From NCBI GenBank assembly GCA_022925895.1, contig JAKSYS010000634.1:1-36486 (forward strand): a stretch of 36,486 nt of DNA, read 5' to 3'. Positions 3,796-30,273 of the stretch are shown here, piece by piece. Source of the DNA: Fragilaria crotonensis. Lineage: Eukaryota; Bacillariophyta; Fragilariophyceae; Fragilariales; Fragilariaceae. Every line of letters begins with the position of its first letter. Position 1 is the stretch's first letter. The notes below the pieces were generated by a model, which did not search any database, was not told where the DNA came from, and saw nothing but the letters and a program-made list of their open reading frames with translations. Position numbers and translations under genes: made by a program.

Positions 3796-6700
3796 ATGGA
3801 TAATTTTACCATGGATAATTCTACCATGGATAGCTTGACAATACCATCACAGGTGTACTCACCGGTACGTCGTGAGCTTGCCGGATCTGTGTAAGCTGCG
3901 TCTCATTCTCATGTATGGGAGTACGCATTCTGTCCTGCGTCTCCTTTCCCATAATTCTGTGCCCTTCCTACTCTAACTCGTCCTTGCCGTCTGCTATCAG
4001 AATCCTGCCATCGAAATCTTGCGAAGTGCTCCAAGTATGGGTAGGAATGAAGAGTTTGCGCTCTTGGCCTCTGAGGATCCAAGAAATAGATCCGAATATA
4101 CATCGGGACTGATGTTTCTCGGGTACTTCTATCTTGCCTTCTTTTTCGTATGGACTGGAGTCGTTTTGATGTTCAAATGCATGGGACCAGAAAAGGTTGG
4201 GTTCTGGTCAGGACACGCCATGCAGCCGATCGAAGTGCAACCCAAGTCATTCATCCGACGATATAGGATTATATTGGTTCGATCCGTCGTTGGTAAGGCA
4301 GCTTTGGTGTGGATAGCCTTCGTCATTGTCTTTTTGACTGTGGGACTGAATGGTCTAAACGAAGCCAAGACGTTGTTCAAGGAGAGCTTCATTGTAAGTC
4401 AACCTCGAAATGCATTTGCAATCTCATTGCTCCTAGTGACTATACCGTACTGAAAATCCTGCGACATAGGAACTGAATACCGTGATTGATGCAGCCGCTG
4501 CGGCCCAAGCAGAACTTCAATTCCAGACTGACGAAGCTATCGTGATGAGGGACAACGTGGTGTTGGACATGACAAGCTTTTGCCGCTTACAGGACATCAG
4601 AAAGGGCAGCAACGAAAGCAGCAGCATTCCACTCAGCATAGGGGCTCGACGCACAGCTCGCATCACATCTTCTGTGCGTCGGGCGAACACTGACGAGGAA
4701 ACGGCGAGTAAGCTAGATGCTCTGTTTGCAAAGTTAGCATCTGAGTCCGCTGCAACCGATGCTCAAACTCCCACCCCAAGTCCAGTCAGAACAGCATCGA
4801 ATCGTCCTGAAGGCAACGTGCACGGCAGAAATACGAATCGACCTATAAGTTTGAATCTCGGTTTCCTTGCTAACGCTCCTGTCGCCAATGTGGATGGCGC
4901 GAATACGAATCAACCTACAATTGTCTTGAATCTCGGTGATCTTGCAGACATTCCCATTGCCAATGTGGATGACGCGAAAACGGATCAACCATTACTGGAT
5001 CTAAGTTTTCTTTCAGTTACAGATGCACCCGTTGCCAATGTGGATGGAACGAATACAGATCAACCATCAGATTTACGTTTGGCTTCCCCGACTGATCCTC
5101 CCGTGGCAAACTTGGGTGGAGCGGATACTGATCAACCTGTGTTTGATACTTCCTTCAATATCCCTTCTGAATCAGATCAGGCCTCGCCCGTTTCGACTGT
5201 TACCGTTTCTACCGAATTGAATCAGACGTTGGATCTCAGCGTCTTCGGCGACTCTACAGGACTATTCGTCAACTCGACTGAGGATTTCGCTAATTTGATT
5301 GGTTTGAGTAGCTTTGCGGGAGATGACGCGTTCAAGGCCTTAATTCTGAATGCTCTATTCTCCTTGATGATGCTCGATGACTTCATGGCAGCCGAACTTG
5401 AGGAGGGATGAATGGCATCAATGCTACAACGGAAGTCGCTGAGATGTTGAACGCAACAGCTTTGACTGTGAATCCTCCCAACGCTCTCGCGTATGTACTT
5501 GCCATTCCATGGTTGTTGGTGCCCTTCGTTTTGTTCATTGTTGTGGTGATGGCTGGGAGATCGAGGGCCAACGCGAAGATTTTGCCGCGTATTGCACGAT
5601 ATACGATGCCATTGCTTTGTCTCTTGACCATGGCGTCAACCGCTCTGGCAATTATCATGTTAGCCTATGCGACCGCCAATGCTGGTAAGTCGTGTTTGTC
5701 ATTGATCTATGGATATCCATTGTCATTGCTGTCGCGGCTCACTGAATGACTACACGCATGTTCTTAGACTTTTGTTCGGGTGGTCAGAGCAACACTCCTG
5801 ACGAAACAATTTTGGAAATGGTCTTAGCAAGGGGCTTCGAAGCAGACAGCTTGGTCTTCTTGGCAACAGAATACTATGTGTCACAATGTGATGCAGAATA
5901 CCCATATGACTTTGTAGACACGTTCATGAAGGAACTTGAAACTGCCAGTTTAGCAATTTCGGCTGTGGAATCCGCCATTGCGACGAAAACTATGGAATCT
6001 ATAGTTGCCGAATGCGGCTCTGACGCCGAGGGGATCGATTCTCTCCTGTCGGCTATGAAGTCTCGCCTACTGGAGGTAGGGAGCGCTTTGGATGATGCTC
6101 TATCAAGTTTGTCGTGTGATTCGGTGGTACCGACGTTTACTAACACAGCCTACGATGATGCATGTGATGTCAGTGTAAGCGGTCTTTACTACTGTTATGT
6201 GTGTAAGTTTCATCATGAATGGGTGGTTTCTTTCTCTATATTGACGCAACCTTTTGTTTTTCGCTCTCACCAAATGTTCTGCCTCTCCTTTCGGACGTTA
6301 GCATTCATCGTGATGGCGTTCACAGGCATGATAATGATAACCCTGCGCACGGCGTTTGTCCCCGTCACAGGTACACAACAAACGAAGGACGCTAAAGGTA
6401 ATCTCAAGGGAAGGGCAATAGACGATATGGAGACTGGCAATCTTGACCAATCAGATGAGGATGTTGACTTTTCTGAGAGTGAATCAGATAGTGACGAAGA
6501 CAAGGCCATTGATTCCGATTCAAGAGGGAAACAGAAAAGCGATTCTGATGAAGATGACGGTTCAGAAAAGGATGAGAACTCAGATGACGATAATGGCAAT
6601 TCGGAAGATGGTAATGACTCCGACAATGATCAAGATTCTGAAGAAGACGCAGATTCGGAGAATGATGCCGGGTCGGAGAAAGATGGAACTTCTGACAATA

Positions 6701-8500
6701 AGGAGTCCTCGGATCAAGACGAAAGCTCTGACGATGATGAAGATTCAGGCGAGGAGGACTCCAAAACACATCAAGATTTGGACAAGGAAAAGGTCTCATC
6801 GAAGGATGATTCGGACAACGAGGAAGACTCAGACAAAGAAGAAACGTCAAGTGAGGAAGAGGATTCTGACAAGGACTCTGACAAAGATGACGATGATGAG
6901 GACTCTGACAAAGATGACGATGATGATGAGGACTCTGACAAAGATGACGATGATGAGGAGGACTCTGACAAAGATGACGATAAGGACGAGGACTCTGACA
7001 AAGATGACGACGATGAGGAGGACTCTGACAAAGATGACGATAAGGACGAGGACTCTGACAAAGATGACGATGATGAGGACTCTGACAAAGATGACGACCA
7101 TGATGAGGTCTTTGACAAAGAGGACCATGATGAGGTCTCTGACAAAGATGACGACGATGATGAGGACTCTGACAAAGATGACGATAAGGATGAGGACTCT
7201 GACAAAGATGACGATGATGAGGACTCTGACAAAGATGACGACGATGATGAGGTCTCTGACAAAGAGGACGATGATGAGGACTCTGACAAAGATGACGATG
7301 ATGAGGTCTCTGACAAAGATGACGATGATGAGGACTCTGACAAAGATGACGATTCTGAAGATTCGGAGGATGAGGGGTCAGAGGAGGATGGTAATTCTGA
7401 CAACAGAAGTCCTCGGACCAAGACGAAAGATCTGACGACAATAAAGTTTCAGACGAGGATTCAAAGAAGAAAAAGACTTCCGATGATGACTCGGACCATG
7501 ATAAAGATGACGATTCTTCGGAAGACTCTGACAACCATCAAGATTCCGACGACGATGAGGCTTCTAAGAAAGTTGACGGGTCGGAGAAAGATGGAGATTC
7601 TAAGAACAATAAGTCCTCGGACCAAGACGAAAGTTCCGATGATGATGACGATTCAGAGGATGAAGAGGAATCGAAAAAGGCTCAAGATTCGGACAATGAC
7701 GACAGGACGTCAAAAGAAAATGATGCCGACCACCAGGAAGACTCTGACGAAAAAGTTTCAGCTGATGAAGGGGGTTCCGATGGTGACAAGGACTTAGTCA
7801 AAGATGATGACGGGTCAGAAGAAGATAGAGATGCTGACAAGTCCTCGGATCAAGGCGGAAGATCAGATGAAGATTCGGACGATGAAGAAAACTCCAAAAA
7901 GGCTAAAGATTCGGAAAATGACGAGGGCTCGTCAAGAGGTAATGATTCGGATGACGAGGAAGACTCTAGCAAAGAAGAAGTTTCAAAGGGGAAAACGGAT
8001 GCCGATGCTGACACGGACTCAGACAAAGATGATGATGCTGATCAGAACTCCGACGAAGATTCGGAGAAGGATGCTAGGTCGGAGGAAGATGAAAATCTTG
8101 ACAAGAATAAGTCGTCAGACCGTGACGAAACCTCTGACGATGATGAAGATTCGGCCGACGAGGACGGCTCCAAGAAGGCTGAAGATTCGGACGAAGATGA
8201 GAGCTCATCTGAAGATGATGGTTCGGACGACGACGAAAGTTCAAAAGAAACGGAGGATGCCAAGGACTCAGACGAAAGTGACGATGATGATGAAACGAAC
8301 TCTAACAAAGATGACGAGTCGATGACTCTGCAAAGAATTAGCCCTCGGACCAAAACAAGCTCTGACTATGGTGTAGATTCGAAGGACGAGAAGACTCCAA
8401 GAAGGCAAAAGATTCGGACGAGGAAAGGGGATTATCAAGCGACAACGATTCGGATAACGAAGAAGACTCATATGAAGACGAAGATTCTAAGAAGAAATAG
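3796..8500 (+). CDS. Five-span membrane protein with acidic repeat tail, copy A (frames broken)
   Basis: First of a tandem pair. Exons set by comparison with copy B are 3796-3864, 4001-4393, 4470-5684, 5768-6202 and 6302 onward, all with GTAAGT/GTACGT-type donors. The N terminus carries Asn-Phe-Thr and Asn-Ser-Thr glycosylation sequons. Two membrane spans follow in exon 2. A large loop has about five copies of an ANVDGxNTDQP-like unit, then come two spans, a Cys-rich loop (exon 4), a fifth span ([15 protein letters not shown]) and a very acidic Asp/Ser/Lys tail. Three breaks are visible. A G run of three at 5405-5407 matches four in copy B and shifts the frame. A second shift near 7405 turns the acidic frame into a Lys/Arg/Thr frame. 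A third falls within about 8322-8392. The acidic frame finally stops at 8500. It is either a recent pseudogene or a victim of assembly indels. Role unknown. Confidence 0.7.
4817..5145 (+). repeat. Degenerate tandem repeat in the first extracellular loop of copy A
   Basis: The loop encodes roughly five units ending in N(T/V)xxP-like blocks, for example ANVDGANTNQP, ANVDDAKTDQP, ANVDGTNTDQP and ANLGGADTDQP, at a spacing of about 24-30 residues. Copy B has only one to two related blocks ([13 protein letters not shown]), so the array expanded or contracted after duplication. Confidence 0.65.
6868..7354 (+). repeat. Minisatellite coding Asp/Lys/Ser/Glu repeats (copy A tail)
   Basis: About 17 imperfect units of 24-30 bp, each built on GACTCTGACAAAGATGACGA and coding for DSDKDDDDE-like peptides. 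Units differ mainly by added or lost GAT/GAC/GAG codons, all in multiples of three, so the frame is kept within the array. The antisense and shifted frames over this stretch are long only because of the repeat. Confidence 0.9.
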
Positions 8501-8954
8501 AATTCTGATGATGGTATGGACTCATACAAAGATGACAATTCTGAGGGTCCTTCCTACACGAGGATTGGGGAAAGGATGAGGGGTCAGAGATTAAGGACGT
8601 TGCAAAAATTCAGATTCTGATGATTCCAAGGATTATTGGAATGCTTCGAAAGGACATCAAATCCGACTCAGAACGGAGGAGAGGTTCGATTCTGACAAAT
8701 TTCGCAGTCTCACGAATATGCTGCGTCGGTGATGAAAGGCGAAGATTCAGACAAAGAGACAGACTACAATTGATATCTTGGAAAGGCGATGCGGACGGCA
8801 ACCGGACGTCAAGGGCTCCTCTGGATGTGATACACCCTGAGATGAGATAGACGCTGCGATTGGTGAAGCTTCTTTTGAAATTAGGATAGTCATTTCATTG
8901 CATGCGTAACGTGACGCACCAGTTGCTTTGAAGAATGACCACTTGTGGGGGGTT
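8501..8954. other. Decayed continuation of the acidic repeat tail, no gene
   Basis: After the stop at 8500, words such as GATTCTGATGAT and GATTCAGACAAAGA still occur up to about 8765 in several frames. I read this as decayed acidic-tail sequence plus spacer. No independent gene is supported before the fucosyltransferase stop at 8955. Confidence 0.45.
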
Positions 8955-10443
8955 CTAAGCCGCCGAGACTTCCCTACCAACTACTTCAGCATAGTAAGAA
9001 GCTGTGGCAACTTCTGGTTGAGCTGCCCATCTGTGCCACCACCGACCAAAGTCAGGGTAGCTATGAGGATTGTCATCTTCGTGTAACTTCGCGCAAAGGT
9101 CACAGAAACTCAAATTGTAAACGTCTCTGCCACCCACAACATGGTAATGGTCTTTCCACCAAAGGTAGGAGAGATATTCAGTAGCATTCTTGTCGAGTCT
9201 GTGGAGGAAATCAGCAAGCGCTTTCGGACTGCTATAATCGAGAACATTAATGAATGAATGGGGAGGAGCTTGGAGGCTGTAATGGCTTGTCCCAAAACGA
9301 TAGGTACCAAGGTATCATTCATTCGCGAAAAGAACTTCTCCGTCACGTAGTCCTGCGCAAAGTTGTTCTCAAATGCCAAATAGAACTTGTAATCACGCAT
9401 AACTTTCGAGTTGCAATTTTCCTCACCATCAACATTATCGCATGGAAAACTTCCACACTTTCCATAGACATCGACATCAATGTATTTCTTCAACTCTTGG
9501 ACGAAATCTTCTCGATGAGAGTTGCTTACACAGCGCGATACCACCCATGCCACCTTCTTTGGTCGACGTGCTAGCCTACGAAAGCTCTCATCTTTGTTTG
9601 GCAAAACATTTCGTACGAAATGCGTCTCATTGTAATCGATAGGCCACGCAGATTGTTGAATTTGGATACCTTTCGGATTCCCTTCTTCCACTGGATCTAC
9701 ATTGGGGGCAATGAATGCATACGGTATTGGAACATCACTATCGATTCGATACGTCATGGTATAGTTCCAGAAGGAATTGTAGCTCGCAGATGTCAATAGT
9801 GGGCCGTTTGGCGGCGGTTCCAGCATGAAGAATACAAATCTTTGATGTGGTTGTCTCCAAGTTTGAATGTAATCCATGTCCCCAGGGCTGAGATTGGCTT
9901 CGACTCCATGCATGACAATTGCGTCAAACTTAGGCATTTCTTCAACCGAAGGAGAATGCACAGCCTGCTTGATGCAACACAAGATGTAATTCGGCATTTT
10001 GCAAATGAATCTTGTTCAAAGCCGACATGGAAATCTGTCCAATGCCAAAAGCTGTTGTAAAACAGGATTTTCTTGATTGGAGGGACCAGGGCCTCGTCCT
10101 GTGTGACCACATTCGGAGGAGCCGAGCTCCTATTCAAGGCATCTTCTTGACTTGCAATGACAGGTAGAGGTCTTGCATTTCCAGATGCTGCAGATGCTCC
10201 TGATGTTGATTCATTATATTGCAGTTTGAGAGGAGAGGATCCTCGGCTGGCACGCCCTTGGGAACAACATCCAGGGTGGCAATATCTAGAAGGACCCAGC
10301 TCTATTGGTGGCATTTTTCCACTCGTTACAACAGGTTGCGCCTCGTTGAATTTGCCAAGGCGTTTACTATTACGAAGGGTGAGACAAAGGAGCAATCCCA
10401 CGCAAACAACTGTCGCTGATCAGGTTCTTCCATTGCCTTTCAT
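8955..10443 (-). pseudogene. Alpha-fucosyltransferase, family GT10 (frame broken in at least two places)
   Basis: GT10 enzymes move fucose from GDP-fucose onto glycans in the Golgi lumen. The diagnostic block is FYLAFENNFAQDYVTEKFF followed by VPIVLG. The C-terminal part continues with APPHSFINVLDY and a Cys-rich end (FCDLCAKLHED). A hydrophobic stretch (ATVVCVGLLLCLTL) near the N terminus fits a type II membrane anchor. Three lesions are seen. A single-base shift falls near 9990, between DSFAKC and NYILCC. A second falls near 9281, between VPIVLGQAI and APPHSF. A TGA at 10422-10420 lies between the candidate ATG at 10443 and the anchor. Both shifts are mended by one extra base in a short A/T run, so assembly error is possible. 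The start is uncertain. The gene lies between, and opposite to, the two five-span genes. Confidence 0.75.
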
Positions 10444-12153
10444 GTCGTATTATTCGCAGGGACCAGTGGAAATGAGCACGAATCACTTCCCGCTCTCAGT
10501 GTAATGATACATGTACTTCAAGCGAACCCTATGACATAATGCTAATCGTACAGTAGTAGTACCAGTAGTCTAAATTAGTAACGAAGAACAGATTAGCATT
10601 CGCGAGTATGGGCGTGGGCGGATTCTGCGCTTTTTTTCCCCCCTTTCGTACTGGAGTTTGGAGTACTCGGATTCTGTTTTTAACATTTGACAATCCGCCA
10701 GTAACGAAAACAAGTAATGATGCGACTAGGTAGGAATAGACTAGTCACGAGCAATATCAAGCTACCCACTGCATGGTAGCTGAACTTGCCGCTTTCCTGA
10801 ATGATATCTCATAGGCCGAGCCATATAGGTAGTATAGTTCGGCCAGTGTATTGGGGGAACAGTAGCACAATCCAACAGTAGCGCAGCACTGTATCAATAC
10901 CTCCTCAGGTCATGCATCGTTGCATGGGTTCACGAAGGTTCTTCCCAAGACCTGAAAGGGTTGTTCTCCTTCAAACCCGCTTCCATCTCCGCTCGTTGGA
11001 CCTAAGTCAACGGCCGAGTGGGATTGAAGTCGGGAGGAAATATACCTGCTCGAGCGAGATGTCTCCTACTAGTAGGAGGCTCCCGTCCGATCGATCAGCC
11101 CAAGATGGGAACCTTCAAGTTCGAGTTATAGCAATCGAACATATAACTCGGACCTTGAACTCGACCCCCCGCTGGGGCAGTACCACAAGCCGTAGCGGGA
11201 AAAGAAAAATAAAGGGATGGTGGGTGGGGAAATAAAAAAGCTGCTTGATGGCCTAGCACGCGATAGGCCTTGGATGTACGGTCCGAAGATAAAGGCTGCT
11301 AGAACCAAAAAGAGTGAGCGATGAATCGCTCTGATGTCTTCCTGCTGGGACTTGATACCAAGCATTCGAAGTAACTAGTAATCAGCTTTTGGCAAAGCTG
11401 GTGGGTAGATTCTTCATAGGACTCGGTTTCCGACTTGGAAGACATCCTTTACGTAACCTGATGGCTGGTCGGTAGCTTTGGATGAAAGCCACGAATTCCT
11501 TGTCGGTAAACTCAATTCCTCAACGCGTTCGTAGTACACCAGTGGCAAGTACATCCCAGTGTGACCTTCGAAACGATTATGAATGAGTTAGACCATACTG
11601 ACACTTTGATTAAGTCGAATCGTACTTGTATGTAGTTACCGGTGTACCGTCTCCTGTGCAACAGTATCCAACTTGACCTGCAGGTACGCGAAGAGTACAT
11701 GTACTCGAGCAACCGGTACTACCACTCTACTAAAATAAATCCGAGTCTTTCGGAGAGACACAACATCGATGTATCGAATTGCTGATCCAGGCGAAGAAGG
11801 AGCGAAGTATCCGTATCGAAGGAGATGCGTCGAGGATACGTTCAGTACTGGTACACCAATTCCGTGAGTACTGTCAATGTAGTATCGTTGGTCTTGTTTT
11901 GTCGGTCGGCGGCCAGACACGTCGGACTCCTTCCTCGTTGAGCAGTTTTCACATGTATGCTCACATGAGCACATTGCGTGACGGTGTATCTATGGAATGG
12001 TCCGATCATCTCATGCAACACTGTGAAAGCCGACACACATCTATGCTTCGCTTACATACTATAAATCGTGGCGTTGACATCATATATCAGACCAAGCGCA
12101 TTCACAACATAGAGGCATAGAGAGAAAAAGGAGTATTCACAAGAGTGATTATC
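10444..12153. other. Intergenic region upstream of the second five-span gene
   Basis: No gene recognised in 1.7 kb. Visible structure includes a long imperfect hairpin at 11114-11159 and a smaller inverted repeat (GGCCTA at 11250-11255, TAGGCC at 11264-11269). The last 250 bases contain short blocks shared with the upstream DNA of copy A. Open frames here lack protein-like composition. Confidence 0.5.
11114..11159. repeat. Imperfect inverted repeat (hairpin), stem about 17 bp
   Basis: The left arm TTCAAGTTCGAGTTATA pairs with a right arm whose reverse complement is TTCAAGGTCCGAGTTATA, separated by about 11 bases. One mismatch and one bulge interrupt the stem. It could be a short inverted-repeat transposon remnant or an RNA hairpin; no function can be assigned. 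Confidence 0.5.
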
Positions 12154-15134
12154 ATGGATAATTTTACCATGGATAATTCAAGTAATACGGATGGTTTTAC
12201 CACGGATAACTCCACCATGGAGGGGTTAACCATACCGATGCAACTTTTCACACCCGTAAGTCATGATCATACTTCATGCGTGTATGTCACGAGGTCCAAG
12301 TTCTTCTACGCAACTCACTTCTCATGTTTCTGCATCCTTCGTATTCAATCCCACCCTCTATAAGAACTTTGCAATCAAAATCATGCGACTTGCCCCTAGC
12401 ATGGGGAACTCAAAAAAGTTTGCACTCTTGGTCTCGGAGGATCCTAGTGACAAATTCGAATACACTTCGGGGTTGGTGTTTCTCGGTCGTTCTATCTGGT
12501 CTTCTTTTTCATGGACCCTCGTCCTTATTCTTTGCAAATGGATGGGACCAGAAAATGTCGGGCTCTGGTCAGGACACGAAATGCAACCAGTGGAAGCAGG
12601 GACAAAGTCATACCTTCAAAGATACAAGGTAAAAATTGTACGAGCCATCTTTGGCTTGGCAGCTTTCTTGTGGATGGTGTTTGTCATAGTATTTTTGGCC
12701 AAGGGACTGAATGGTCTAGAAGAAGCCAAGGTTGCATACAACGAAAGCTCGACAGTAAGTAACAATGTCGCAACCAAGTATTTGCAAACGGATCAACACT
12801 CAACATACCGCTGCACAGGAAATGTTCTTGGTGATTGATGCCGTCGCTACCGCTCATGCAGAACTTCTTAATCAAACTGACTCGGCTACTGCAATGAGGG
12901 ATGATTTTGTGTTAAATATGACCACCTTTTGCGGCGGACAGGGCAGCATAAGCAACGGTGGCAACGGTAGCAGCGGTATCAACAGCACAAGCAGCAGCAG
13001 CAGCAGCAGCAGCAACATCAACAACACAAGCAGCATCCCATTCAGTTTAGGGGCGCGACGACGCATTGCTCAGAACGCCACTTCTGCGCCGCAGGTGAAC
13101 GCTGATGAGGCAACGGCGAATCAGTTCGCGTCTCTCTTTTCAGATCTCGCAGCTGAGAACATTACAACCGATGCCAAAACACCCGCCCCGAGCCCTATCG
13201 GTTCCGGCTCGCGAAGTGGAGTCAATACGGATCAGCCTGTTTTTGTCTTGAATCTTCCTGTCGACAACGTCAATGACGCCAGTACGAATCTTCCAGTATT
13301 AGATCTTAACTTCAATCTCCCCACCGAATCGAATGAGACGTCAGCTATTTCGAATGTCAGTGATTCTACAGACTTTAATCAGACGTTGGATCTCAGTTCC
13401 TTTGGCGACTCGATGGGACTGTTCGTCAACTCGACAGAGGCATTTGCTGATGCAATTGGATTGAGTCCATTTACTGGTGACGAAACACTCAAGGCCTTAA
13501 TTCTGGATGCTCTGTTTTCAGTGATGATGCTCGATGATTTTGTCGCAGCCGAACTCGACGAGGGGATGAAGGGCATCAATGCTACAATGGACGTCGCCGA
13601 GATGTTGAATGCAACGGCCGTGAGTATTAATCCTCCAAACACAGTAGCCTACGTTCTTGCCCTCCCCTGGATGGTGGTACCCTTGGTGTTTTTCATCCTT
13701 GTGGTGATGGCTTGGAGATTGAGACCGAATTTAAATCTTTTGCAGCGTATTTCGCGGTATGTGCTGCCACTGCTTTGTCTGCAAACCATGGCGTCAACAA
13801 TACTGGCAATCATCATGGTAACCTATGCGATCGCCAATGCTGGTAAGTAGTGTTCGTCATTGATCCGTGGCTCCATTGTCGTTGCTGTTGTGGTTAACTG
13901 AATCGACACGTCCTTAGACTTTTGCTCGGGTGGCCAGAGCAACACTCCTGACGAAACAATTTTGGAAATGGTGTTAGCAAGGGGCTTCGAAGCAGACAGC
14001 TTGGTCTTTTTGGCAACAGAATACTATGTGTCACAATGTGATGCAGAATACCCATATGACTTTGTAGACACGTTCATGAAAGAACTTGAAACTGCCAGTT
14101 TGACAATTGCGGCTGTCGAATCCGCCATTGCGACAAAAACTATGGGATCCGTCGTCGCCGAATGCGGTACGGACGCCGTGGGGATCGATTCTCTCCTGTC
14201 GGCGATGAACTCTCGCCTTCTGGAGGTGGGGAATGCATTCGATGATGCACTATCAAGTTTGTCGTGTGATACGGTAGTGCCGACATTTACCAGCGCTGCC
14301 TATGATGCTGCATGTGATGTCAGTGTGAATGCTGTTTACTATTCGTATGTGTGTAAGTTTCGATCATGAAATGGGTTGGGTTTGTATGTCAATAACGACG
14401 CAAATCTTTTGTTTTTCTCGCTCACAATATCTTCCTGCTATTTTGGACGTTTCGTAGCATTCATCATGATGGCGTTCACGGGCATGATCATGATATCCCT
14501 CCGTACAGCGTATCGTCCTGTTGAGGGAGAGGAAGAGGAGCTAAAGGAGTTGTTGGCCAAACGGGCTGCAGCGTTGAAGGAACAAAGGGCGAGACAAAAA
14601 GCTGCGGCAAAAGAGAGAAAGAAGGCGGCCAAGGCGAAAGCCAAGAAGAAGGCCAGAAGCCTTGAAGATGTTGAGTCTGCCACTGTTGACGATTCTGATG
14701 AAGATTCGGACTCCGATAAAGATTCTGACTCGGATGAAGACTCTGACTCTGATGACGACTCGGACTCTAACAAATCATCGGACTCTGATAAAGATTCGGA
14801 CTCTGACAAATCATCGGACTCCGATAAGGACTCGGACTCTGACAAATCATCGGACTCCGATAAGGACCCGGACTCTGACAAATCATCGGACTCCGATAAG
14901 GACTCGGACTCTGACAAATCATCGGACTCCGATAAAGATTCGGACTCTGACAAATCATCGAACTCCGATAAGGATTCGGACTCTGATAAAGATTCGGACT
15001 CTGATAAAGACTCGGATTCCGACAAGGACTCAGACTCCGATAAGGACTCGGATTCCGATAAAGATTCAGACTCTGATAAAGACTCGGATTCGGACGACGA
15101 CTCTTCGAGTGACGATTCTTCCGAGAGTTCATGA
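12154..15134 (+). CDS. Five-span membrane protein with Asp/Ser/Lys tail, copy B (intact)
   Basis: Exons are 12154-12255, 12365-12754, 12819-13842, 13918-14352 and 14458-15134, giving 875 residues in one frame. The N terminus has Asn-Phe-Thr, Asn-Ser-Ser and Asn-Ser-Thr sequons and no cleaved signal. Predicted spans are about residues 70-92, 125-146, 440-462, 479-500 and 651-668. Loop 1 (about 150-440) is Ser/Asn-rich with a Ser run. Loop 2 (506-650, exon 4) has several cysteines (DFCSGG, SQCDAEY, AECG, LSCD, AACD). A Lys/Ala-rich, probably helical segment (about 675-720) leads into a Ser-Asp-Lys repeat tail. This 2-loop-2-loop-1 layout matches Tweety and prominin proteins, but I see no sequence proof of homology. 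Copy A upstream shares every intron position. Likely a surface or endomembrane protein with a cytosolic polyanionic tail. Confidence 0.8.
14764..15090 (+). repeat. Minisatellite coding Ser-Asp-Lys repeats (copy B tail)
   Basis: Six units of 36 bp carry the word AAATCATCGGACTC at about 14771, 14808, 14844, 14880, 14916 and 14952, coding for [12 protein letters not shown]. From about 14960 the unit becomes an 18-bp DSDKDS repeat. The unit differs from that of copy A, so the two arrays arose or were homogenised independently. Confidence 0.9.
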
Positions 15135-18137: not shown

Positions 18138-19323
18138 TTACTTCCCCTTGGGTTGGACTTCGGATTCCAACACTGGCCGGACAAAGATTTCATCCCTCGG
18201 ATGATCTCGTTCTCCCTCTTCAAACGTATAACTCGCGGCAATGGCAAGGTGCGATCCGGTTGGTGAAAAGACCAAAGCCGCAATGCTGGTGGGAAATTTC
18301 GGAAGTGATGTTAATTTTTTCTTGTGAAGGCCATCCCAAATGGCCACGGTACCATCGCAACCACCAGTGGCAAAGGTACAGTCTTGCGTCGGACAAAAGG
18401 CAATGGCATTGACGGGATAGACTGTATCCTGGATGCGATGGCATTTGAAGGCGTATTTTTTCTTTTCCGAATTGGCGGTGCCAATGTTGTTATTGTTTGT
18501 AGAATTAGCAACGTCAAGTGAGGTTGATGACGTGTTGGATAACAATGTTTCTGGTAAATACTCGACTGCCACTCGACCTTCAATACTTCCTATAGCAATC
18601 CCATGTCCATTGGGGAAGAATTGAACGCATCGTGTTTGATATTTGAGTGACGATTCTCGGTCCAACACCGTTTGTAATGTGCCATGATTAAAATCGCAAA
18701 AGACCAGTCGTCGTCCGGCACTGGTGGCCACGACGATGCGATTCCGCGATTCATCCACATCCATGGCAAAGGCCTTGCCGGGAAGGTCCATGGAGGCAAT
18801 CGCAACTTGTGATGACGATCGTACGTCCCAAAGATGCAGTTGTGAATTCCAGCCGGCACTAACGATTAAATTCTCACCGAGACTTTTGAGACAGGAACAT
18901 GCCACCTTGGATGGTTCACCCGAGTGACGACCGACGACTGATGTCGCGTTGGTGAGAATATCTAATTTTCGGACTGTTGATAATAATTTTGGAATTCAAC
19001 GTAGTGAGAACAAGAATGACAATAACAACACAAGTGATCACCGTCTACGTACTGCTACCATCCAATCCCCCCGTCACTAACAATGGATTGCTTTTCATAG
19101 TTCCCATGGTTGCTAAACTCAAAAGTGGACCAGAATCCATGTATTGATTAATTTGTGATACCCATCGTTCCGTGTCGTGAAGTCGAACACATCCATCCCA
19201 TGATGTGGACGCCAAGAGAGAAGACGATGACGATTCGTCGTCACCGTTGCGCAAGTATTGGAGCGCGCTAACACCATCGGTGGGTGGATCAGGTAACGCT
19301 TTCGCTTCTGGTAATGCTGACAT
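18138..19323 (-). CDS. BUB3: Mitotic checkpoint protein BUB3 (WD40 propeller)
   Basis: BUB3 binds GLEBS motifs of BUB1/BUBR1 and recruits them to phosphorylated KNL1 at kinetochores in the spindle assembly checkpoint. Exon 1 is 19323-19053 and exon 2 is 18973-18138 (intron 80 bp, GTACGT donor, CAACAG acceptor), giving 368 residues; metazoan BUB3 is about 328. Signature blocks of the family are present in order: SLKYQTRCVQFFPNGHG, SIEGRVAVEYL, KKKYAFKCHR, VYPVNAIAF, FATGGCDGTVAIWD, and HPRDEIFVRPV at the C terminus. A Ser/Asn-rich insert (about 30 residues) separates the VEYL and KKKYAF blocks. The start was taken at the ATG of MSALPEAKALPDPP. It is divergent from the pyrophosphatase gene. Confidence 0.92.
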
Positions 19324-20068: not shown

Positions 20069-20962
20069 ATGCTTACGTTTGGCCACTTGGCCACTCTGGC
20101 CAATGCTCGACAGAGGAATCAATTCAAAACTCCACGACATCTCATTTTGGAATTGACAGCCTTGGTGGGACTGTTGGCATCCTCCTTTTTGCAGCATTGT
20201 CCACTCGATAATCTGATTGCAGAAACATCAACAACATCGACAACACCATCCACTACTATCAAAACACCTCCCACATCTCCGAATCGAAAACTCCGTCCGA
20301 CACCACCCATGTCTCCATCGACAAAGCTATGGAGACCACCGGTGGAGACACGGTTGCTCATGGGACAAATTCTATTCCAATTGGCCATGACAGCATCGTC
20401 GTGTCGTTTGGATCTACGCAAATGCATCCTTGCCAAATTAGTTCTCAATGAAAAGAAGTATCCTGTCGAACTCTGCAAAGGCAAGTCTGGAAAGTATACG
20501 GCATATTCGGATCAGACGGGAATTACGAAAACTGTAGGACAAGATACAGATGTGGGTGTTGTGTTGGAAGACAATGACAGCAGTAGTGGCAATGACGAAG
20601 ACAATAACAACCAGGACAACAGCGAAAACAACAATTCCGGCGATACGTACCAAAGTCCCGAACACGACAAGACTGAAATCGATGCCATTCAAATGAAAAT
20701 TAGCAAATTTGCAGACGACCGATTGTGGAATCGTTTTCACACGCCTCGCAATCTAGTTCTGGCCTTGATTGGAGAATTGGGAGAATTGTCGGAATTGTAC
20801 CAATGGAAGGGAGAAAAGGAAGAGTTGAATGGTGCCGAATTGGAAAAGGTGGGACAGGAGATTGCCGATGTGGCCATTTATTTGTTGCGATTGGCAACCG
20901 TATGTCGAGTCAAGATTGGTGAATATACAGTAGAAGCGTGTGCGAACATGACTCAAAAGTAA
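20069..20962 (+). CDS. dCTP pyrophosphatase-like (all-alpha NTP-PPase) protein with two domains
   Basis: Single-exon frame of 297 residues. Residues about 206-297 match DCTPP1/XTP3-type enzymes, which cleave dCTP and modified analogues to the monophosphate plus pyrophosphate and clean the nucleotide pool. Seen are WNRFHTPRNLVLALIGELGEL, the metal-binding acids of the ExxE pair (E236, E239) with E242, the ExxD pair (E264, D267), and YLLRLATVCRV. Residues about 6-150 look like a second, decayed copy: NQFKTPRHLILEL lines up with the active domain, but the four metal ligands become Leu, Leu, Ile and Gln. The N domain still has the KKYPVELCKGKSGKY end that the C domain lacks. An acidic Asp/Asn linker (about 160-205) joins them. 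The family forms oligomers through helix bundles, so the N domain may act as a built-in partner. Confidence 0.8.
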   Translation: MLTFGHLATLANARQRNQFKTPRHLILELTALVGLLASSFLQHCPLDNLIAETSTTSTTPSTTIKTPPTSPNRKLRPTPPMSPSTKLWRPPVETRLLMGQILFQLAMTASSCRLDLRKCILAKLVLNEKKYPVELCKGKSGKYTAYSDQTGITKTVGQDTDVGVVLEDNDSSSGNDEDNNNQDNSENNNSGDTYQSPEHDKTEIDAIQMKISKFADDRLWNRFHTPRNLVLALIGELGELSELYQWKGEKEELNGAELEKVGQEIADVAIYLLRLATVCRVKIGEYTVEACANMTQK

Positions 20963-23983: not shown

Positions 23984-25646
23984 CTAAGGGGGGCAGCCAA
24001 CCGCTAGTTCCCATGCAGTTCCACTATTGGGCGCATTGAGTTCCACGGTAACGGAAGTGCTCGCAGACTTGGAGGAGCCGTACTTCACGCCGACGCTGGC
24101 GAGATCCCGACACTAATCCACCCGTCGAAAAGATGCTTTCACCTTCGTAGAAGATGTTCAGCCCATCAGGAATGCTGTACATATCATACGACACAGGAAA
24201 CGTGCCGTTCTTCTTCTTCAAATCAACTGTGAACGAAGTGAAGCCTTGACCACCCGACACTTGCGTGGTGGGGCATTGCGCTTCACACAAGTTGCACACG
24301 CAGTCGAAGACATCCGCTTGACCGCAGTCAGTGTCTTGGCAGCACTGTAGTTCTATAGCGTCGGTTCGAGTCACTTTGGTTTTGGTCATGAACGGCGAAG
24401 ACCATCCGTACACAGTGAAACGGCCGAAGATATTGGACGCAATTCGTGCGGCAGTTCCAATGCCTGGATCATCTCGATTGAAGTCATACAAATCTTCAGC
24501 AGAAATTTCCAACGAAACGTCAACTTGGCATTGAGCCTGATTGTACGTCGCAGTACCAGTAGACCAGAGCAAGTGACGTCCCAAAGCACCCTTCCAATTG
24601 ACAGTCGTGGATGCCACACTGCGCGTCGTGGTCTTGTAGAATTGGAACGACGTGTCGCTCCCGGACGCTCCGAGAGCTCGAGCAGCATCGGTGGCAGCGC
24701 GTATCTCGGCATCAACAGCGTTGCTGATCCCTGCATCCTCACGAATCGCTTTCTCGTAGTCAACGGTAATGTCGCTTCCAGAATTACGTAGATAATGACG
24801 GAATCCTTCGCGACCTTCTTGCGTCCCAATGTACTTGAGCTGGACATAGAGACTGATAGCATCTAGGACAGCTTGCACTCCTGGCAGCAGCACCGTAAGC
24901 GTTACGTATGAAATTACACCTTGATCAATGAGTTGCTGAGTCGCAGCGAAGAAGAGGTAATCATACCACCTCACTGGGACCGAAGGATCCCTGACAAAGT
25001 CTCGCGTGAATTGGCGCGGAGGCCCAGCGGACGGAGCGGTTCCCTTGGTATATCCGTTGTACTCGCCACTCGCTACGCCGCAATCATCAGCCTGCTGAAG
25101 GCCGCGCGTATCAAATGGAAAGTCCACGACTGTGGGGATGGTGGGAGATGTGATTTCTTCCAGCCGACGAGTGCTGTTGTTGTTAGGCTCAAAGTTGGTC
25201 AAGACGAAATCGGTCATGTTGCCACCGGGGATGAGGTCCGCCACGGTGACAGCACCGGAGTTCAACAACGACGTAAGGAGCAGGACAACGTCTTCAATTG
25301 TGACAACGCCATCCTTGTCTAGATCGTACTGTAGGTTCGAGTTGGGAGTAATAAGCTTTAAAGGGTCAGCGATATTGCGAAGAGTGAGAATCACTGGATC
25401 TAGGACGTTGGAGGGCACGCCGCCGCCGCCCTTGCCCCTTTTCGTTGGTCTTGGAGTAGCTTTTCTGGTCGGCTTTCGGGTAGGCCTTCGCGTTGGGTTG
25501 CGGGTAGGCTTTCGCGTTGGGTTTCGGTTTGGCTTTCGAGTGGTCTTGGCGTTTGATAGGTCACGATCTGGAGCCGCGCTCGACTGTCCGATAACCAGTG
25601 CGGCAATGAAAGCCAGTTCTCCGAGCAGCAGAAACGATAACTTCAT
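23984..25646 (-). CDS. Secreted Pro-Thr-repeat protein with a dockerin/EF-hand-like calcium loop
   Basis: The protein starts at the ATG at 25646 with a signal peptide (MKLSFLLLGELAFIAALVIG, then QSSAAP). A basic TRKPTRNPTRRPT repeat follows, a feature common in diatom wall and adhesion proteins. Next is a calcium-loop motif DLDKDGVVTIEDV followed by a Leu-rich helix. The large middle region has several Asn sequons and no known domain. A Cys cluster (LQCCQDTDCG, DCVCNLCEAQC) precedes the C-terminal beta-rich domain. The frame breaks near 24106-24108: one more base in that C run would give DLASVGVKYGSSKSASTSV and end with GTAWELAVGCPP and a stop at 23986-23984. Without it the protein ends at 24024 in an unrelated Arg-rich tail. 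The shifted-frame ending looks like the genuine one. Confidence 0.75.
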
Positions 25647-26411
25647 ATTTGAGGTACCTGGTAGATCCAAGCCGAAATATGCTATGAAGATTCTCCTCAA
25701 AATCGCCCCACACCAGCATCTTTGGAGAGTGTATCTTGTATCTTTAAGTCACAAGATTGGCGTGCGCGACCTGTCAACATGCCAGCCTTAAATTCGTATA
25801 CACCCTTGGTAGATTCGTTGCGATAGTTGGACAAGTGCTCATAAGCTCATAAGTATAAATCATTTATGCAATTGCTTGCGTGTCGCCGCAGTCTTGCTAT
25901 ACGCTAGAGCTTAAACGTTCATGGCACTACCTGGTACTCAAGAGAAGTGTTAAGGTACGTGGTTCTCAGTTCGTGTGGCAAAACACCCTGACTGGTTTGA
26001 TGTGTTTCTAAATAACCACGATGATCTTGACACAACTCCGAGGTCCAAGGAAACGGTTTTGAGTTGAGAACGTCGGAGAACAGATTGTTGTCATGTGTAA
26101 TTATATAAATATGTAAATATGCATAGATTCCAAAGGAAATCCGATTTGTCCAGCATAGCAGTTAATTCAAGTACCAGTACGATATCACGTGATGAAATGC
26201 TGCAAACTTGACAACAGGTTTGATATTTATGATACTCGGAGTAAACACGTTCTGCTATCATACTAGTACAGCAGTCATTATATATATCGTACGCTGGGTC
26301 CCAAGACTCCAAATTTCAGTTTGCGCGCCGGTTCGTCTAAATTTGAGATCCCAGAGCCATGGTCCATTTTATGCCAGTGTCCGAGGGTGTCAACCGTTAT
26401 TGCGTCGCCAC
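25647..26411. other. Intergenic region to the left of the copia element
   Basis: No gene seen. Bases about 26327-26391 resemble the DNA just beyond the other end of the element (32911-32986). Both share CCGGTTCGT, then GATCCCA, GCCATGGT, CATT and CAGTGTCC in the same order. The last bases before the LTR (GCCAC, 26407-26411) are the target duplication. Confidence 0.5.
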
Positions 26412-26734: not shown

Positions 26735-28984
26735 TTAATACGTAAACCTGTCAAGTAGCTCCTCTCGTCTTGCCTGCGGTAGCAGCTTGGTGAATAGGTC
26801 GCTTAGGTTTGTTTTTGTTCCTTCCTTCGCAACCCGAATTGTTCCAGCTGCTACTGCTTCCCGACACCTATGGTAGGCGATTGAGTGATGCTTTTTCTTC
26901 AATGTCGATTCCGGTAAGGTGGTGTTCTTGTAAACCGCCTCGTTGTCGCAGAAGACATTGGTGGCTGTATCGAGCGGTATTCCGAACATTCGCAACTTGT
27001 ATCGAAGTGCCTCGGTCAGTTCGACTGCATTCTTCATAGCTTGGAACTCGCTTCCGAATGTGCTCGCTTCGACCGTGTTCTGGCGCTTACTGTGCCATAT
27101 TATTGGTGCTTTGTTGCAAAACAAAAGTATCCCTGTTTGCGACCGCCTCGTAGCCCAATCGCTGCCATGACTGGCATCCACAAAACAGTGTGTTGACATT
27201 GGGTTACCACGCGGCTTTGGCATATCTGTCGGGATAGCTTCAGATGCATCCCGATAAAAATCGCACCAGTCATATTCCTTGAACATACGTTCGTCGATCT
27301 TCGGATGTTGGAAATCGAAGGCAATCTTCCTCTTGGGATAAAGCTTGAAATATCCAAACATGCGATATAATTGTTGAAGGTGTCCTTCCCGCGGCATTGC
27401 CATATAGGTTGACATCAATGCGACTTCAAGCAGTACGTCAACTCTTCCGAGCTCAACTGCCCATCGTAGGACCCCGATCAACTCTTGGTACAATTGGATG
27501 CCGTCGCTTTTTAGCTCCGGGCTCGTTTCCAATTCGGGTCGGTAATCCGATGGCAGTGGAGTGTAGCACTTGGAAGGCAATCGGAGCCCTCGTTTTGCGA
27601 GCGCCTCGACGTTCTTCACCGATGCCATGACGTATTTCTCGGCCGACATGGTCCAGCATTCCGCACCGCCAATGACCATTTTATCAAGCTGTGCTCCCAA
27701 GTAAATTTCGGGGGGTTCAATCTTGTCGTCCTTTAACTTGAAAACCGTAGTCAGATCAAGCAACGTTGCTTTTGGATCGTCCGAGATGCACAATATGTCA
27801 TCCACGTAGCACAGGGCAAGTTCATAGTATTCAAACCCATTCGCTTTAACCGCCGGTCGAAGCCATACATCAGGGTCCGCCTTCGTGGGTTTGTACCCAA
27901 TATCATGCAAGGTGTCAGCGAGTAGTGACCTGAACGCAGCGCCCGCAGACTTCAACCCGTATAGTGCCTTCTTCACCAGGAATATTGTTCCGGCTTCTGA
28001 TCCGAATTCCGGGCCAGCGACTGTCCAGATCTTCTCTCGGCAGTCAGCCGTCAAATAGGCGTTTTGAATATCGCAGGCCATCACCTGCAACCCGTTCAAA
28101 CCGGCAATTGTCAAGGCAATCCTGACCGAGTCCCTCGAAACCACTGACGAATATGTGATGATCGAGTCTGGTACTTCTGTGGTGTGTCCGCCAGCCACAA
28201 ATCTTGCCTTCCTCCTGAAATTCTCTCCCATCTTCACATCGAATATTAGATGGCATTTTATCTGTTGGTATCCCGGTGATATCTTGTCCGCCGAGTCCTC
28301 CCAAACTTCGAATGCGGGGCGCACGTTCTTCATTTCTTTCATGATGGCATCCCACCAGAGAGTATTGCCGTTCTCGGCGTCGAACCGCCGTGCTTCCTCG
28401 ACCGTTTTCGGTATTTTTATACCAAACTTATGCGTCCTGATCCAGTACTTGGATTTAACCTTCGCAATCACCCGATTCCTCTTTTTCAGGGTGTGGGAGA
28501 CCCACCATGCAAATGCAGGTTCCTCGGCAATCCTAGCTTGGACGGCGTACTCAGCCGTCTGTATAGGGTATGCCTCTTTCATATCCTTGAGACTTATCCA
28601 CGTGGTACTCAAGTCTTTCCATTGCACGAGTATTTCCCAGCCAATCGTAGTCTCACGTCGTCTGCGAGTCCCCATTCGGGTAGTCACGAAGGCATCCTGT
28701 TGCAAGACTTGCTTACCGGTAGTCCGATAGTCGATTATTTCTTGAAATAATACGTGGCGGTTGCCCTCGTCGTCAATTTGGGCGAAGAGGTTTTCGGCGA
28801 TCGCATTCGCTGCCAGGGACGCTTTGTATCCGTCTTGGAACTCCACTTCGTATTCCCTGGAGTCCAATATGGGGTTATCGTGAGCGGTACCGATTGGCAA
28901 CCCATCCTTATCCCGCAAGCGCTTGACGACGCGAGCAAGCTGGACTTCACCGCCATCGCGAGGCAGCGCAAGTTCCATGTTCAA
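26735..28984 (-). CDS. Copia reverse transcriptase and RNase H segment
   Basis: An unbroken frame of about 749 residues forms the last part of the polyprotein. Residues about 115-140 (GWEILVQWKDLSTTW) resemble a chromodomain core. The RVT_2 reverse transcriptase follows: VMACDIQNAYL holds the first catalytic Asp (about 305) and CYVDDILC holds the YVDD pair (about 394-395). The RNase H part has CFVDASHGSDW, NTVEASTFGSEF and VFCDNEAVYKN with the expected acids, then KKKHHSIAYHRCRE. The catalytic residues I can check are all present, so this segment could be active. No ATG is needed at its upstream edge because it is cut from a polyprotein; the frame is separated from integrase by shifts near 29000 and 29220. 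Confidence 0.93.
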   Translation of the reverse strand: MNMELALPRDGGEVQLARVVKRLRDKDGLPIGTAHDNPILDSREYEVEFQDGYKASLAANAIAENLFAQIDDEGNRHVLFQEIIDYRTTGKQVLQQDAFVTTRMGTRRRRETTIGWEILVQWKDLSTTWISLKDMKEAYPIQTAEYAVQARIAEEPAFAWWVSHTLKKRNRVIAKVKSKYWIRTHKFGIKIPKTVEEARRFDAENGNTLWWDAIMKEMKNVRPAFEVWEDSADKISPGYQQIKCHLIFDVKMGENFRRKARFVAGGHTTEVPDSIITYSSVVSRDSVRIALTIAGLNGLQVMACDIQNAYLTADCREKIWTVAGPEFGSEAGTIFLVKKALYGLKSAGAAFRSLLADTLHDIGYKPTKADPDVWLRPAVKANGFEYYELALCYVDDILCISDDPKATLLDLTTVFKLKDDKIEPPEIYLGAQLDKMVIGGAECWTMSAEKYVMASVKNVEALAKRGLRLPSKCYTPLPSDYRPELETSPELKSDGIQLYQELIGVLRWAVELGRVDVLLEVALMSTYMAMPREGHLQQLYRMFGYFKLYPKRKIAFDFQHPKIDERMFKEYDWCDFYRDASEAIPTDMPKPRGNPMSTHCFVDASHGSDWATRRSQTGILLFCNKAPIIWHSKRQNTVEASTFGSEFQAMKNAVELTEALRYKLRMFGIPLDTATNVFCDNEAVYKNTTLPESTLKKKHHSIAYHRCREAVAAGTIRVAKEGTKTNLSDLFTKLLPQARREELLDRFTY

Positions 28985-29217: not shown

Positions 29218-30273
29218 TCAATTTTCGATTCGAGGTTTGTTACTCTTTTGCACTGTCGTTCGTGACAGTACTTTGCCTGTGCTTGTCAAGACCCAGAAAG
29301 ACATCAGAGTCCCAACACGATGTGATACTCCGAGCCATCTTCCGAGTTTGGTCTCACCCAATCCGGCATTTTCGCGGTACCAGATCCAATCATAGAACCC
29401 AAAGTCAAGGTATTCTGATATGTCGACCGTTTCGCCTGTAATGCGTTCAAGTGGGCATCTGCCTTCTAGTCCCCGCGAACTGTTGGATGTGCGATTTTGG
29501 ATGTCACACACCCACTGTAGACCATAGTCCCACAGTCGCTGGGGTACATTTTTCCGAATCATGACTCGAAACCACTTCTTTCTGATCTCTCGGATGACGC
29601 CTTCCGCGAAGTTGTGGTTCGGGCGATACGGTTCTGTGATGTGATGACTGATCGCATATTTTCTCACGTTTGCCATAAACTCCGTCTTGCGACCACATTG
29701 TTCTTGGGAGCCATCAAACGTGAGTTTTTCTGGTCTTCCATATTCGTTAATGAATTGGCGCAATGCATCCCCTGCCTCTGATTTATTGTGAAGCGGGAAA
29801 GCTGTCGCGAAGAAGTCCTTGTTGGCAAAGACTTGGGCATAGCGATTACCGTTGAGCGACTTGCACCGACCGTCCATCGTATCAGTGTAATACTCGCCTC
29901 GAAGCAATGGCTTTTCGAAGACGCGGTCCGCTCGATATCTCCGACTTAACGGAAGTACCGCCGACCTCTTAACGTTTTGTGTCGTCACCCTGATGGTTTC
30001 GTGGGCCTGTGCGAGCCCGATAAACCATCTTTCACTCAGTTCCTGCGCCGTTACAACCGAATGTCGCTTTGTCGTGGCAAAGGTCTTAGGTATGGGAACG
30101 TCAGGGACAAGCGTTTCAGTTCCATCAGTGGTCACCGTGGCAAGCAATCGATCAGTCAAGAGACATGAGATCGAACGCTCGTCAAAATTGCACGTTGCCA
30201 TATCGAAATCCACATCTTTGCAGTTGCATTGATGCGACTGATGCCGTACTTCCCGCCTCACCGTGGTGAACAC
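29218..30273 (-). CDS. Copia integrase segment
   Basis: A frame of about 350 residues. A His-rich zinc-binding start (AQELSERWFIGLAQAHETI) is followed by the DDE core: the first Asp in EYYTDTMDGRC, the second in KLTFDGSQEQCG, and the Glu in HNFAEGVIREI. The end matches the copia integrase C terminus. The frame stops at RIEN just before a continuing frame (28992-29201, MDSFTTTITDRIGG) that belongs to the same polyprotein; one base separates them in an A run. Confidence 0.9.
   Translation of the reverse strand: MFTTVRREVRHQSHQCNCKDVDFDMATCNFDERSISCLLTDRLLATVTTDGTETLVPDVPIPKTFATTKRHSVVTAQELSERWFIGLAQAHETIRVTTQNVKRSAVLPLSRRYRADRVFEKPLLRGEYYTDTMDGRCKSLNGNRYAQVFANKDFFATAFPLHNKSEAGDALRQFINEYGRPEKLTFDGSQEQCGRKTEFMANVRKYAISHHITEPYRPNHNFAEGVIREIRKKWFRVMIRKNVPQRLWDYGLQWVCDIQNRTSNSSRGLEGRCPLERITGETVDISEYLDFGFYDWIWYRENAGLGETKLGRWLGVSHRVGTLMSFWVLTSTGKVLSRTTVQKSNKPRIEN

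Follow-up and report, generated by a model that had tools for sequence, protein, structure and literature searches.

What kind of protein is encoded by the two related genes, here called copies A and B, that lie on contig JAKSYS010000634.1 of the diatom Fragilaria crotonensis (GenBank assembly GCA_022925895.1)? A preliminary description of this stretch of DNA had assigned to both genes the five-span topology of the Tweety and prominin proteins. We analysed the whole stretch of 36,486 nucleotides (hereafter the window, to which all positions refer), and our tentative answer, which we rate at somewhat less than an even chance, is that both copies specify a five-span membrane protein of Tweety-like layout that would most plausibly work like Tweety, membership of the Tweety family being unproven.

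Copy B consists of five exons separated by GT-AG introns (12154-15134, plus strand) and encodes 875 residues without internal stop. Copy A, which begins at 3796, is homologous to it, and all four GT-AG intron positions are common to both, confirming that the window contains two related genes with identical intron positions. Comparing the left part of the window with its right part at the DNA level brings out A and B as duplicated blocks (at best 81.6% over 1213 columns). At the protein level, exons 2-4 of copy B match only A and B within the window (E<=0.01). The first 500 bases upstream of the two copies give 65.8% in a gap-rich global alignment. The copies are not direct neighbours, as their description as a tandem pair had implied, since a gene for a GT10 fucosyltransferase (~8958-10401, minus strand) separates them on the opposite strand. 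The exons, with the five transmembrane spans numbered TM1 to TM5, are the following:

3796-3864, plus strand: copy A exon 1, N terminus with sequons
4001-4393, plus strand: copy A exon 2, TM1 and TM2
4470-5684, plus strand: copy A exon 3, first outer loop, TM3 and TM4; frame broken near 5408, stop at 5409-5411
5768-6202, plus strand: copy A exon 4, second outer loop, Cys-bearing
6302-8500, plus strand: copy A exon 5, TM5 and acidic tail over three reading frames
12154-12255, plus strand: copy B exon 1, N terminus with three sequons
12365-12754, plus strand: copy B exon 2, weak TM1, TM2
12819-13842, plus strand: copy B exon 3, first outer loop, TM3 and TM4
13918-14352, plus strand: copy B exon 4, second outer loop with 5 Cys
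14458-15134, plus strand: copy B exon 5, TM5, basic stretch and 148-residue Ser/Asp/Lys tail

Membrane spans were scored on an approximate scale of insertion energy (dG), with a strict cut-off of dG <= 1.0 and a loose one of 2.5. At the strict cut-off, each copy contains five span-like segments, a number reached by none of 400 shuffles of B and by 3 of 400 shuffles of A, and these follow the 2+2+1 order of the Tweety layout (with a weak TM1 in B). The previously described order of five spans with two long loops, cysteines in the second loop and a charged tail is thus borne out. At the loose cut-off, B again has five segments (reached by 132 of 400 shuffles) and A has six (51 of 400), the additional one being located in the first outer loop. 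Counting by hydropathy, a cruder measure, yields four segments in B; since shuffles average 2.6 and go up to 7, this count is not above chance. The best TM1 segment has an approximate dG of +0.78 in B (+4.0 for the segment chosen by hydropathy) versus -0.34 in A. Two length differences from A, one of 1 base and one of 2 bases, bracket about 10 residues of this span in B and cancel each other out, and the weak TM1 could be due to a compensated change or to errors.

Lys and Arg together account for 12.5% and 25% of the two short loops and for 30% of the 60 residues past TM5, versus 3.1% and 2.7% of the two long loops. According to the positive-inside rule, this charge pattern favours an N terminus located outside and an acidic tail predicted to be cytosolic. 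With the span limits that we chose, copy B has outer loops of 292 and 150 residues (EC1 and EC2, respectively) and inner loops of 32 (TM1-TM2) and 12 residues. Its sequons number 3 before TM1, 15 in EC1, none in EC2 and one in the tail; the core has 18, compared with a shuffle mean of 7.4. The N terminus described earlier as glycosylated does carry sequons, and it is on these that the term rests. EC2 contains five Cys residues in B and six in A. From these features we infer an outer domain that bears Cys residues and whose first loop has a low-complexity insert rich in sequons. EC1 of copy A also contains a 75-base-pair tandem repeat (2.2 copies, 4830-4990), and copy B is much shorter at this place.

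How far does this protein resemble Tweety? Excerpts of two papers describe Tweety proteins as having five spans arranged 2+2+1, an N terminus outside and a cytosolic C terminus (PMC8361169, PMC8617170), and in one of them the C terminus of all three human TTYH proteins is presumably unstructured and carries an acidic stretch (PMC8361169). Copies A and B share with TTYH1-3 the five spans in 2+2+1 order, sequons ahead of TM1, Cys residues in the second outer loop and a tail rich in acidic residues, whose cytosolic side and disorder are predictions for A and B. In the light of the acidic stretch reported for the human proteins, the earlier statement that the tail has no counterpart in Tweety or prominin proteins was overstated: the tail differs from that of Tweety in its size and repetition. 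Copy B further differs by the low-complexity insert in its first loop, by the absence of Asp and Glu from its five delimited spans (none occurs in the printed spans of A), whereas Tweety has a conserved mid-membrane acidic residue, and by the absence of an EC2 sequon, whereas mouse TTYH2 is glycosylated at N352 on EDH4 as well as at N129 on EDH1 (PMC8617170). When one of the five Cys residues in EC2 of B is set aside, the remaining gaps (38, 76 and 16) resemble those of the Cys residues forming the two disulfides of mouse TTYH2 (26, 67 and 15; PMC8617170), in a post hoc match that random placement equals in 1303, 5515 or 11503 of 100000 trials, depending on the tolerance.

Sequence searches brought no family assignment. 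The copy B core matched no Pfam family at E<=1, and two of seven exon pieces searched in Pfam at E<=10 gave one chance-level match each (YBR126W-A, 0.55, and DUF6111, 0.29), neither being Tweety, a family represented in Pfam. Three pieces of the membrane part had no NCBIfam family above cut-off, and sequence searches of the PDB up to an E of 10 returned 1, 1, 2 and 3 matches, none of which is Tweety; these searches were made without a distant-Tweety positive control, with HMMER filters that drop most matches above ~0.1. Among the PDB matches, those with E of 0.61, 2.4, 2 and 9.5 were dropped, as was one with E of 0.018 that falls in low-complexity sequence of exon 3. Staphylococcal SD-repeat adhesins of NCBIfam (8 families listed), which match TM5 and the tail with a best E of 5.9e-19 and 67.6 bits against a cut-off of 1700, were rejected as compositional.

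A membrane part that has no family above cut-off in Pfam, or for three pieces in NCBIfam, and that lacks several TTYH features is also what one would expect of a lineage-specific five-span protein unrelated to Tweety and prominins, e.g., a receptor, sensor or adhesion protein, which would have come to its 2+2+1 layout independently. The same direction is indicated by the potential tweety orthologs of two Thalassiosira species (OrthoDB, as cited in an excerpt of PMC8273234), which suggest that some diatom relatives are recognisable by sequence, whereas the A/B protein was not. As the layout, the predicted orientation and the acidic cytosolic tail all agree with Tweety, with which the Cys spacing of EC2 is also compatible, we place this explanation second, only slightly behind the Tweety-like one. 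The preliminary reading is thus partly supported: layout and predicted orientation match Tweety, while family membership receives no support from the sequence searches.

The structure prediction and fold search suggested for copy B in the preliminary description were carried out on exons 3 and 4. The single-exon AlphaFold2 models are mostly helical, except for the long unstructured middle of exon 3, and have a low mean predicted local distance difference test score (pLDDT), namely 37.8 for exon 3 (3 rows) and 47.1 for exon 4 (2 rows). At this confidence, exon 3 starts with a helix (2-43), to be compared with the Tweety feature in which TM2 continues as a long outer helix. In fold searches of the PDB, neither the single match listed for exon 3 nor any of the 35 listed for exon 4 has E<=0.001, and none is Tweety; the models are too uncertain for these results to decide anything.

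Prominins are the other class in which the 2+2+1 layout and the two outer loops of copy B are found, and putative prominins have been reported in SAR (PMC11405016). The same source gives a curation rule (outer loops over 300 residues, inner loops under 25) and a near-invariant Trp in TM5. Copy B, in contrast, has no outer loop above 300 residues (292 and 150), a TM1-TM2 loop of 32 and no Trp in TM5, and prominin membership was rejected on both grounds, loop sizes being those measured in copy B. Scans of viral contigs gave short-pattern stretches (4 for exon 3, 21 for exon 4, 4 for exon 2 and 156 for the TM3-TM4 part), as did prokaryote contigs (51 for exon 4 and 95 for the TM3-TM4 part), with no confirmed relative in either; the collections being viral and prokaryote, these scans say little about eukaryotes. 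Among the matches listed in a search of the open-access literature, no diatom five-span protein with an acidic tail was found.

The charged tail is the part in which the two copies differ most in length. In copy B, TM5 is followed by a basic stretch, beyond which lie 148 residues that are mainly Asp, Ser and Lys and have a net charge of -50. Its 207 residues past TM5 include 41 S/T-x-x-D/E sites among 60 Ser and Thr residues, a kind of site typical of casein kinase 2. In copy A, the first frame of the tail runs to ~7400 and comprises 350 residues (146 Asp, 51 Glu and 50 Ser); the Asp/Glu/Ser/Lys-rich frame then shifts near 7400 and at least one more time between ~8300 and ~8400, and the last frame stops at ~8500, ~710 codons from TM5. 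Of the tail lengths first described (150 to about 700 residues), the lower one is therefore that of copy B, whereas the ~700 residues of copy A exist only as the sum over three frames, because its frame is broken. Both tails are encoded at least in part by tandem repeats:

6872-7353, plus strand: tandem repeat encoding part of the copy A tail
14706-15095, plus strand: 36-base-pair tandem repeat encoding the copy B tail

Between units of the copy B tail lying 12 codons apart, 41 of 59 differences are synonymous and 18 non-synonymous, and between units 6 codons apart, 59 of 87 are synonymous and 28 non-synonymous, compared with 260 synonymous and 1072 non-synonymous among 1332 random single changes. 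The protein sequence of this repetitive Ser/Asp/Lys tail thus looks preserved, although the counts are indicative only, as repeat units copy one another and are not independent. The copy A tail shows no synonymous excess over random (synonymous to non-synonymous 13:66 at 10 codons and 18:71 at 9, versus 209:1276 for random changes), though its units are out of register, and so lends no support to constraint on this tail.

Such a composition brings to mind the silacidins, which the title of a work cited in PMC5525289 calls highly acidic phosphoproteins of diatom shells; the likeness is by description only and concerns an acidic, phosphorylatable, Ser-rich composition. One might accordingly imagine a membrane protein of the silica deposition vesicle, or one otherwise associated with mineral, with an acidic tail that would encounter polyamines or mineral in the manner of silacidins. 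Here, in contrast to silacidins, the acidic part is the tail of a five-span protein and is predicted to lie on the cytosolic side; no silacidin or silicanin sequence entered the comparison, and we consider this explanation very improbable. The predicted cytosolic side likewise conflicts with the initial idea that the tail binds calcium or mineral outside the cell, and would fit the idea, put forward with it, of a kinase target.

Is the A/B pair maintained as protein-coding sequence? The ratio of non-synonymous to synonymous substitution rates (dN/dS) between A and B is 0.30 when 611 codons from five regions are pooled: exon 2 (0.345), two parts of exon 3 (0.317 and 0.29), exon 4 (0.15) and TM5 (0.163). 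The pool omits the tail and exon 1 (0.079 over 23 codons). Judging from this comparison, the pair is under protein constraint. Exon 4 is also uneven along its length: its first 182 bases (5768-5949 versus 13918-14099) contain 5 mismatches and the remaining 253 bases 41, the boundary having been set after looking at the alignment. The longest identical run, 71 bases, is matched by 45 of 5000 shuffles. A near-identical patch followed by divergence suggests gene conversion at the start of this exon.

Copy A is nonetheless broken in the present sequence. It has no single open frame, as a length difference relative to B near 5408 leads to the stop at 5409-5411 in exon 3, to which the shifts in the tail are added. 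The intervening GT10 gene is interrupted in the same manner: one frame covers profile positions 2-105 of its Pfam domain with an E of 2.4e-32, and a second frame (8958-9314) covers positions 95-182 with an E of 2.7e-21, which implies a change of frame near 9275, and a second change near 9990 was read by eye only, the upstream frame having no Pfam match. The stretch may be decaying; alternatively, copy A may not be decayed, its breaks, like those of GT10, being insertion or deletion errors of the assembly. Beyond each break of copy A the expected sequence resumes in another frame, exons 1-4 show no stop ahead of the break in exon 3, none was seen from there to the tail break in the frame that takes over, the GT10 domain likewise carries on in its second frame, and the A-B dN/dS agrees with a gene that is not decayed. 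Open frames of 573, 558 and 749 residues elsewhere in the window argue against generally poor sequence, and hence against this explanation. We put assembly error at somewhat short of an even chance; it is compatible with the other readings.

Taken together, several observations weigh against a Tweety-like protein. Besides the broken frame of copy A, TM1 of copy B is weak, and the N-terminal segment contains 7.6% Lys and Arg, so that the charge pattern is not fully clean. The spans of B have no acidic residue, its EC2 has no sequon, and the match in Cys spacing was found post hoc. Pfam, NCBIfam and PDB sequence searches gave no Tweety or prominin match, and the structure models combine low pLDDT with fold searches lacking any match at E<=0.001. 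Lastly, the repeat units behind the codon counts of the B tail are not independent, and the A tail lacks a synonymous excess.

The rest of the window contains genes of other kinds. A protein kinase-like gene (741-1762) comprises two open frames, each with a Pfam Pkinase match above cut-off. A frame of 749 residues (26735-28984, minus strand) matches the Pfam reverse transcriptase RVT_2, presumably of the copia type; this retroelement protein gave 3 pattern matches in viral contigs, none confirmed. The frame at 29218-30273 has an integrase-core match below its cut-off. Frames for a WD40-repeat protein (18138-18905, minus strand), for 297 residues with a MazG-like match below its cut-off (20069-20962) and for 558 residues with PT-repeat and EF-hand matches, all below curated cut-offs (24024-25700, minus strand), were also detected. 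Scans of the window for tRNA and Rfam families had no match.

If the protein does work like Tweety, what might it do? The preliminary description had proposed a channel or a membrane-shaping role, the first of which is contested for Tweety itself: the excerpted papers report structures without channel features and argue against a channel function (PMC8361169, PMC8617170), whereas a review still names these proteins chloride channels (PMC8273234). Lipid transfer is reported to be faster with TTYH2 (PMC12328215), and by analogy with TTYH2 the outer domain of the A/B protein may handle membrane lipid or shape the membrane. The acidic tail could act beneath the membrane as an electrostatic brush or docking platform tunable by phosphorylation, the many casein kinase 2-type sites in it being the putative targets. 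Disordered regions in relation to membrane curvature or caveolae are the topic of PMC4515776 and PMC7875971. In a more specific version, which we deem unlikely, the two genes would belong to a branch of the Tweety/prominin class peculiar to their lineage. The force that bends the membrane would there be supplied or tuned by an acidic cytosolic brush, made of repeats, open to phosphorylation and differing greatly in length between the two paralogs, and the outer domain would carry a sequon-rich, low-complexity insert.

Should the protein prove not to be Tweety-like, copies A and B would represent an uncharacterised five-span family. If it is Tweety-like, they would extend a class tied to lipid transfer and membrane bending to tails of very different lengths, which would allow testing whether the charged tail sets membrane shape.

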